64,000 nt of DNA from Hyphomicrobium facile (GTDB taxonomy: Bacteria; Pseudomonadota; Alphaproteobacteria; Rhizobiales; Hyphomicrobiaceae): contig NZ_FPCH01000003.1 of assembly GCF_900116175.1 (NCBI RefSeq), forward strand, positions 372,001-436,000. Direction: 5' to 3'. Below, piece after piece: positions 17,994-20,231 of the stretch. Position 1 is the stretch's first letter. The number at the start of each line of letters is the position of its first letter. The notes below the pieces were generated by a model. That model was not told the origin of the DNA, made no database searches, and was given only the letters and a program-made list of their open reading frames with translations. Made by a program: the position numbers and the translations under genes.

Positions 17994-18998
17994 TCAATTC
18001 TGCTTGGTCGTAATCTGATCGTAGACGCCGCCATCGGCAAAGTGTGTTTTCTGGACGGTCGCCCAAGGACCAAGCTTGTCTTCGACCGAGAAGGTCTTGA
18101 TGGCCGGAAGGTTCGCTTCCTTCAGCACGGCTTCGTTACGCGGGCGAAAATGGTGCTTGGCTATGATTTTCTGCGCGTCGTCAGAATAAAGGAAATCGAG
18201 ATAGGCCTTGGCGACGTCCGCTGTCTTGCGTTTTGCGACGACGGTATCGACGATTGCGATAGGGGGCGCCGCCTCGACGCTGAGCGAGGGATAAACGACG
18301 TCGAAGTTCTGCCCATCGACCTCTGCCTTGATGAGAGCGGCTTCGTTCTCAAACGTCACCAGAACGTCGCCGATGGCGCGCTGCGTAAAGCTTGTCGTGG
18401 CGCCGCGTCCGCCACCATCGAACACCGGTACGTTGGCGAAAAGCTTGGCGACGAATTCTCGTGCCTTTTCGTCTGAACCGAGCTTGTCAACCGCATAGCC
18501 CCAAGCCGCAAGATACGTATAGCGTCCGTTCCCTGAGGTTTTCGGGTTGGGAATGACAACAGAAGTGCCGGACTTTACCAGATCATCCCAGTCGGCGATG
18601 CCCTTTGGATTGCCTTTGCGGACGAGAAAGACCGTGGTGGTCGTATAGGGTGCCGCGCCGTTGGGGAATTTCGTCCGCCAGTCGCTCGCGACGGCGCCTT
18701 TGCTCACGAGAAAATCGAGGTCCGTCGGCTGATTGAGCGTGACGACATCGGCCTCGAGGCCTTCAGCGACGGCTTGCGCCTGCTTTGTCGATCCGCCGTG
18801 CGCTTGCTTGACTTCAATGTCGCCTCCCGACGACTTCTTCCAGCTCGCAACGAACGCCGGGTTGATTTCTTTGTAAAGCTCACGCGAGACGTCATACGAA
18901 GCATTGAGAATGCTCGATTGTGCGAACGCTCCGGGCGATACCGCCACGAGAAGAGCTGTCGCCAAACCAAGCCGCGATATCGTCCGCCCGATCGTCAT
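17994..18998 (-). CDS. sbp: Sulfate/thiosulfate ABC transporter substrate-binding protein
   Basis: 334 residues from ATG 18998 (AAGGA 8 bases upstream). A signal peptide (TISRLGLATALLVAVSPGAFA) precedes the family pattern ILNASYDVSRELYKEINPAF, QAHGGSTKQAQAVAEGLEADVVTLNQPTD and NPKTSGNGRYTYLAAWGYA, which form the sulfate-binding loops of Sbp/CysP. It delivers sulfate to a CysTWA-type transporter, but no permease or ATPase gene is adjacent, so it must work with one encoded elsewhere. A hairpin with a T-rich tail and two tiny genes lie upstream on the same strand. Confidence 0.92.
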   Translation of the reverse strand: MTIGRTISRLGLATALLVAVSPGAFAQSSILNASYDVSRELYKEINPAFVASWKKSSGGDIEVKQAHGGSTKQAQAVAEGLEADVVTLNQPTDLDFLVSKGAVASDWRTKFPNGAAPYTTTTVFLVRKGNPKGIADWDDLVKSGTSVVIPNPKTSGNGRYTYLAAWGYAVDKLGSDEKAREFVAKLFANVPVFDGGGRGATTSFTQRAIGDVLVTFENEAALIKAEVDGQNFDVVYPSLSVEAAPPIAIVDTVVAKRKTADVAKAYLDFLYSDDAQKIIAKHHFRPRNEAVLKEANLPAIKTFSVEDKLGPWATVQKTHFADGGVYDQITTKQN

Positions 18999-19620: not shown

Positions 19621-19686
19621 GTCTTTGCTCTGCCGGCGGTCGCCAGCGTCCTCTTGAGTGCGATTGTTCAATTGAAATGGCTCAGT

Positions 19687-19715
19687 CCGGGCTGCGTGAT
19701 CTCAACAGCAGCCGG
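19687..19715 (-). promoter_or_regulatory. hairpin over the last codons of the Met/Cys-rich peptide gene
   Basis: GCAGCCGG at 19708-19715 pairs with CCGGGCTGC at 19687-19695, an 8-bp stem with one bulged G and a 12-base loop. The Gly-Cys codons are in the stem; the last Cys codon and the stop are in the loop. A ribosome paused at these codons would keep the stem open. Confidence 0.45.
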
Positions 19716-19779
19716 GCATACACATGCAGCCCATCATCATCGCGCGAGAGGCATTAGAGCGGGGGTCTAAGTTTTTCAT
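19702..19779 (-). CDS. 25-residue Met/Cys-rich peptide, candidate leader peptide
   Basis: ATG 19779 to TGA 19702, with a good ribosome binding site (GGAG 8 bases upstream). The N-terminal half is ordinary (MKNLDPRSNASRA); the C-terminal half is MMMGCMCMPGCC followed at once by the stop. Nine of the last twelve residues are Met or Cys. The two final Cys codons and the stop lie in a hairpin (19687-19715). It precedes two tiny genes and then a sulfate-binding protein gene on the same strand. That position suits an attenuator sensing sulfur amino acid supply; a metal-binding or modified peptide is the alternative. Confidence 0.6.
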   Translation of the reverse strand: MKNLDPRSNASRAMMMGCMCMPGCC

Positions 19780-20231
19780 AGCGGTCTCCATTGCGGAGCC
19801 TACGAGCATTTCGTAGGGCTTAGCGTTTGATGACGCGGCGCAAGTCGCTTTCGAAATCACCGCGGCCAGCACAGCAGCGTGCCGACAGACGCATGAAAGC
19901 CTTGATCGAGGTGTCGGGTCAAATAACAAGAACTTCGATGCTTATGAGGTCAGGGATAAAGTCGGGGCGGACGGCGAAATCTCGACGAAGGGGACGCCTG
20001 GATTCTCTGGATCGCCGACCGGTGCGCCGACCGGAGAGGCCGATTCAAGGTGAGAAATCACGCCGTTCAATTGAACGCGGTTAAGGATTGCAGTCTTTTC
20101 CTGATGCTCAGTGGCTTGCTCACAGGTATGGGGAGTGCCCGATCCGCCGTGGCAATTTCCCACATACCGCTCCGGTGCTACACCTCGTCAGGTTCGGCGA
20201 CGAATTCAGCAGGGGAAGGGGGACCTCAAGT
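19780..20231. promoter_or_regulatory. 452-base divergent intergenic region
   Basis: It lies between the Met/Cys-rich peptide gene (minus) and the UDP-glucose dehydrogenase gene (plus) and should hold both promoters. A hairpin CCTACGA-GCATT-TCGTAGG (19799-19817, extendable by two pairs past one bulge) ends about 18 bases before the peptide gene's start and would be in its 5' leader. I see no other gene in this stretch. Confidence 0.45.

Follow-up and report, generated by a model that had tools for sequence, protein, structure and literature searches.

The SAM-II riboswitch (the metA motif, RF00521) is a known regulatory RNA (PMC1273637, PMC3764141), and the excerpts of the published accounts on which we draw describe three further systems related to the one considered here. 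The S. meliloti metA riboswitch (PMC9373788) is, like the candidate element at our locus, of the SAM-II type, with a ribosome site that acts on a start further downstream, but the excerpted text of that report describes no cysteine leader peptide. In mycobacteria, polycysteine leader ORFs precede sulfur-related genes, and cysteine-responsive attenuation has been proposed for them (Canestrari 2020, via PMC9094748 and PMC13236596). A short ORF with cysteine codons before sulfur-related genes is common to both cases; however, the excerpts describe the mycobacterial ORFs as leaderless, whereas ours has a Shine-Dalgarno sequence and lies behind a riboswitch-type aptamer. In the CruR copper uORF of Bordetella, stalling on a short upstream ORF decides Rho-dependent termination (PMC9426467). 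The short upstream ORF is again shared, but CruR, as excerpted, reads copper through the nascent protein and has no aptamer. SAM-II riboswitches and cysteine leader ORFs are each already known, and it is their predicted combination that we did not find described: among the matches listed, the open-licence literature gave no prior description of a SAM-II riboswitch before a cysteine leader.

The locus lies in a 64,000-nucleotide stretch of Hyphomicrobium facile DNA, referred to here as the window. An earlier note on this DNA had proposed a sulfur-amino-acid attenuator; its cysteine ORF stands, but it had overlooked a conserved SAM-II-type block just upstream. We think it probable that the two form a composite sulfur-control leader with SAM and cysteine as its inputs, on only when both are low. 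The features are as follows.

19820..19872, minus strand: putative SAM-II-type aptamer, with a full-length RF00521 match (19802-19873, 11.5 bits) and a match to our covariance model R1
19864-19860 with 19838-19834, minus strand: aptamer stem P1, CGCGG paired with CCGCG
19844-19839 with 19825-19819, minus strand: aptamer pseudoknot P2, CTTGCG paired with CGC(T)AAG
19797..19820, minus strand: hairpin P3, identified by covariation, its base sharing A19820 and G19819 with pseudoknot P2
19786..19798, minus strand: stem P4, CUCC (19798-19795) paired with GGAG (19789-19786), the leader Shine-Dalgarno
19779-19702, minus strand: leader ORF of 25 codons, MKNLDPRSNASRAMMMGCMCMPGCC, identified by conservation and a frame test
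19632..19654, minus strand: AGAGGA (19654-19649) and, behind it, a hairpin (19647-19632), both ahead of the 75-aa gene's ATG, identified by conservation in the genus
19620-19393, minus strand: 75-aa gene, the likely direct target, judged from homologues and composition
19396-19220, minus strand: 58-aa gene, sharing 4 nt with the 75-aa gene
19143-19113, minus strand: terminator-like hairpin, after the small genes and ahead of sbp
17994..18998, minus strand: sbp, sulfate ABC transporter substrate-binding protein (TIGR00971, 399 bits, cut-off 155.5)

The 25-codon ORF is real. As the earlier note had claimed, it has an ATG (at 19779), a GGAG 7 nt before it and the C-terminal end MMMGCMCMPGCC, with the stop at 19702; about 90 nt of conserved sequence lie upstream of it in the window. 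What relatives keep of it is the cysteine-rich end, not the methionine run. These relatives were sought via the downstream 75-aa gene, and so independently of the peptide. Of the 30 loci fetched, 27 have a short ORF that carries at least three cysteines in its last 12 codons and stops 73-104 nt ahead of the matched 75-aa gene start. The three loci without such an ORF are L019, L020 and L024, of which L019 ends in QACRRS and L020 in QTCRHC.

Cysteine enrichment is also seen when leaders are chosen blindly, by ribosome-site strength and start codon only. This procedure yielded 100 leaders from 106 distinct loci; the six excluded rows had no short ORF led by a ribosome site, and L125 (Pseudoalteromonas), L157 (Clostridiales), L176 (Chloroflexota) and duplicate sequences had been removed beforehand. 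At least one cysteine falls within the last eight residues in 87 of the 100 leaders and at least two in 59, compared with 449 and 46 of 2077 control ORFs from the same loci and 43 and 3 of 210 ORFs at random places, although the loci are related and these counts are not independent events. Over the last nine codons (27 nt), TGY triplets occupy 225 of 900 positions in frame, compared with 41/800 and 2/800 in the other frames. Of the 225 in-frame cysteine codons 141 are TGT, a codon used for 3 of the 24 cysteines in seven genes of the window. These comparisons leave the cysteine-reading leader peptide well supported as a prediction. They bear out the cysteine half of the attenuator proposal and not its methionine half: we rejected methionine as the amino acid read by the leader, because MMM occurs in only 5 of 100 leaders (L002-L004, L015 and L117). 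Methionine is mildly frequent near the leader end, at 5.3% of the last eight residues. Arginine beside cysteine is also frequent, with leaders ending CRCRRNS-like in L112-L118 and L140, and RCRR or CCRR in Methylobacterium leaders.

The cysteine-rich end would also suit a metal-binding or post-translationally modified product, the alternative named in the earlier note, and the leader of one relative gives a TIGR03602 match of 15.1 bits, far under the cut-off of 35 and best read as composition. We consider such a product highly improbable, since leader length (11-48 aa), the N-terminal half and cysteine spacing all vary, leaving cysteine near the stop as the sole kept feature, whereas the position of the leader between the aptamer and another gene is fixed. 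Five leader peptides tried against NCBIfam gave no match above cut-off. A stem over the cysteine codons and stop, also proposed earlier, does appear on folding, but across 27 relatives this region folds only slightly better than it does with its post-stop part shuffled (mean z -0.63), and the hairpin was rejected for this reason.

Upstream of the leader, the conserved block at 19820-19872 is, from sequence comparison, a divergent SAM-II-type riboswitch aptamer. About 50 nt long and nearly invariant within the genus, it shares with SAM-II, as excerpted, the P1 stem and pseudoknot and the GAUUU, UUGC and GCUAA elements (PMC1273637, PMC3764141). It differs in that P2 is shorter, no GGCC extension follows, the first gene behind it is a cysteine leader ORF, and the score is below cut-off: 11.5 bits in the window, far under the family cut-off of 36 bits. 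Our own covariance model R1 gives the window 69 bits, with a training set that contains the window sequence. At the leaders of related loci, RF00521 matches 12 of 20 from the order (18.8-32.3 bits) and 18 of 20 from other orders (20.4-36.8 bits); in an earlier 11-locus search one locus passed E 1, and among 38 scored relatives L242 alone, at 36.8 bits, reaches the cut-off. A relaxed aptamer pattern, which contains the conserved SAM-II positions U10-U12, U20, U21, G22, C23, G42, C43, U44, A45 and A46, is present in 28 of the 30 protein-found loci (absent from L022 and L024), whereas pattern-found loci carry these positions by construction. None of the other RNA families searched at the leader was convincing. 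The term 'sul1 RNA' appeared in none of the papers among the matches listed.

The position corresponding to A47 is G in Hyphomicrobium: in the window and in all 28 of the 28 protein-found rows; among the 78 pattern-found rows the base is A 63 times, G 12 times and U 3 times. According to the excerpted structural description, A47 of SAM-II is in contact with the methionine moiety of SAM (PMC3764141), and because this contact is changed we call the element a SAM-II-type variant, not a proven SAM-II member. The substitution may alter ligand or affinity. It is the argument for supposing that the Hyphomicrobium aptamer is a variant for a ligand other than SAM, placed ahead of a cysteine leader that works as proposed. 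We think this quite unlikely, given that the remaining pocket positions are kept and that the same aptamer type precedes MetN- and MetQ-like genes, which are typical of SAM control. With SAM as its ligand, the upstream aptamer would report the methionine branch.

How the aptamer might act on the leader is suggested by the RNA between them. The 5' hairpin that the earlier note had placed at 19799-19817 proves to be conserved and corresponds to P3, in which 96.5% of cells are paired and covariation is 0.299 compared with 0.156 in shuffled alignments, a value reached in 0 of 500 shuffles. P4, which would mask the leader Shine-Dalgarno, is invariant inside the genus and so offers no covariation there. 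Across 93 loci, with leader starts chosen partly by cysteine, the masking stem scores 12.2 compared with 8.3 for shuffled upstream segments (the top of 200 null means is 9.35), and it is significant singly in 17 of the 93. In five distinct loci (L027, L109, L110, L130 and L151) the leader GGAG, or GGAA in L130, directly follows GCUAA, and in one clade the leader ribosome site lies at or overlaps the aptamer pseudoknot strand. We count the ribosome site placed after GCUAA in the five loci, the masking stem elsewhere and the covarying P3 in favour of a link between aptamer and leader. In folding models the leader ribosome site of most Hyphomicrobium loci is masked by default. When the pseudoknot is modelled as formed, exposure of the site falls clearly only in L011 and L012. 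For this reason we grade aptamer-leader coupling as plausible.

The same default fold, which most Hyphomicrobium loci show whether or not the pseudoknot forms, speaks for a reading in which the two elements are independent: SAM would act on transcription or on the stability of the RNA, while the leader would read cysteine regardless of SAM. The excerpted S. meliloti work offers a precedent, as the SAM-II riboswitch there also alters mRNA stability (PMC9373788). Independence sits poorly, however, with the five loci in which the leader ribosome site is directly at the pseudoknot strand and with the wide occurrence of a masking stem before the leader, and we regard it as unlikely.

Returning to two-input control, we propose that when SAM is high the pseudoknot would form and the leader would stay untranslated. 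When SAM is low, the leader would be translated and its ribosome would read charged Cys-tRNA. If cysteine is also low, the ribosome would stall on the cysteine codons close to the stop, with expression of the downstream gene as the outcome. Expression would require shortage in the SAM branch and in the cysteine branch alike. In favour of this reading we counted that, where other genes stand behind the element, they are sulfur genes. Against it we counted the aptamers without a cysteine leader, the G at the A47 position, the RF00521 score of 11.5 out of 36, the default masking of the leader ribosome site on folding and the negative findings on the final step given below.

For the final step, Rho or translational control are the candidates. 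There is no intrinsic terminator between leader and target (19621-19701), and a trp-type intrinsic attenuator after the leader was rejected on that ground. The excess of C over G after the leader is mild (C/G 1.21; mean percentile 0.77 over 27 loci, with L020 left out and leader starts chosen partly by cysteine). Pairing of the cysteine end of the leader with the downstream ribosome site was no better for a locus's own pairs than for swapped ones. A second test gave it a mean rank of 0.32, with 3 of the 27 loci reaching 0.05, and such pairing was set aside as not above chance. With no terminator, a mild C excess and no pairing above chance, the final regulatory step is unsupported. The hairpin before the 75-aa gene is conserved in the genus, with 92.6% of cells paired and two pairs changed on both sides, and the hairpin of 19654-19618 may bring the Shine-Dalgarno-like AGAGGA and the ATG together.

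The 75-aa gene is the likely direct target, and the usual target of aptamer plus leader appears to be an unnamed family of 60-75-aa proteins. A homologue of the 75-aa gene occurs in 45 of 103 genomes of the family, and the protein family is found downstream at E 1 in 89 of 110 order-level loci, a count that includes duplicates and off-targets. The 50-residue cores of 55 family proteins (2750 residues) contain no cysteine and one methionine, compared with the 24 cysteines and 50 methionines that seven window genes predict for them. A core nearly free of both amino acids is as expected for a protein made when sulfur is short. The family has no known-family match above cut-off and no significant PDB match, and DUF3071 matched weakly in 2 of 32 members; the predicted structure has three strands and a long helix, at a mean pLDDT of 89.

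The earlier note had followed the same strand through two small genes to sbp and placed the downstream genes under leader control. The gene order is as it described, but the terminator-like hairpin at 19143-19113 separates sbp from the small genes. Of 30 relatives, only 10 were found to have sbp after these genes, and in the other 20 it was not found there. Terminator-like sites in the region number 2, compared with a shuffle mean of 1.2, and are not significant by number; a like hairpin, counted without a chance control, is present in 10 of 10 loci where sbp follows, weakly in L018. Because this hairpin precedes it, sbp is probably not the main target, and its membership in the regulated unit is uncertain. 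In L021 the terminator-like hairpin that follows the 75-aa gene and precedes sbp is overlapped by a weak match to mmgR/suhB at 1362-1435 on the minus strand (25.0 bits against a cut-off of 41).

Elsewhere, the genes behind the element include MetQ, MsuE with NtaA/DmoA, and sbp above cut-off, and SsuA-family and MetN-like proteins under cut-off. Of 397 genomes in the order, 32 match a pattern of the conserved aptamer block, and the reversed control has none among the matches listed. A scan of named genomes gave at least 80 loci, mostly in Hyphomicrobium, Methylobacterium and Microvirga, and also in Methylorubrum, Kaistia, Chelatococcus, Rhodomicrobium and three off-target species. The pairing of aptamer with cysteine leader recurs in Hyphomicrobium, Methylobacterium, Microvirga, Kaistia and Chelatococcus, and also outside the order. 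In 18 of 28 loci there a blind-chosen short ORF is present, 14 of these 18 having cysteine in the last eight residues, and the 75-aa family is present in 9 of the 28. Across the class, the covariance model finds matches at E 0.01 in 135 of 385 genomes, the weak ones among them possibly being canonical SAM-II. Canonical SAM-II loci from the window's family served as a negative control, and 27 of them gave four short ORFs and no cysteine; 3 of 30 loci without the canonical core were left out, and GCUAAA was demanded, which makes this control uninformative on A47.

Some aptamers, those of L119, L245, L246 and others, have no cysteine leader. In L245 and L246 the aptamer stands before sbp, and further examples precede genes read from sequence alone as OAH sulfhydrylase-like and CysG-like. 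In L119 it lies directly before a MetN-like ABC ATPase gene. We put at about even the chances of the broader proposition, that this is a widespread alphaproteobacterial two-input RNA control in which a SAM-II-type riboswitch decides translation of the cysteine leader, a nearly sulfur-free protein, or elsewhere sulfur-uptake genes, would be made only when SAM and cysteine are short, and the A47 change may alter ligand or affinity in Hyphomicrobium.

If true, one leader would unite two sensors already known, a riboswitch for a metabolite and a leader peptide for an amino acid, giving AND logic over two branches of sulfur metabolism that is simple to test. The unnamed, nearly sulfur-free family also becomes a candidate for a part in sulfur starvation in many soil and plant-associated bacteria. 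The scores show as well that many SAM-II-type aptamers fall under the library cut-off. In the window, a second conserved block, TTCTTGTTATTTGAC-like, lies at about 19930-19890 on the minus strand; much of the genus has it ahead of the aptamer, and a sigma-70 promoter scan around it found nothing. Two SAM-II aptamers stand in tandem in 4 of 20 loci of other orders (L251, L257, L264 and L269).
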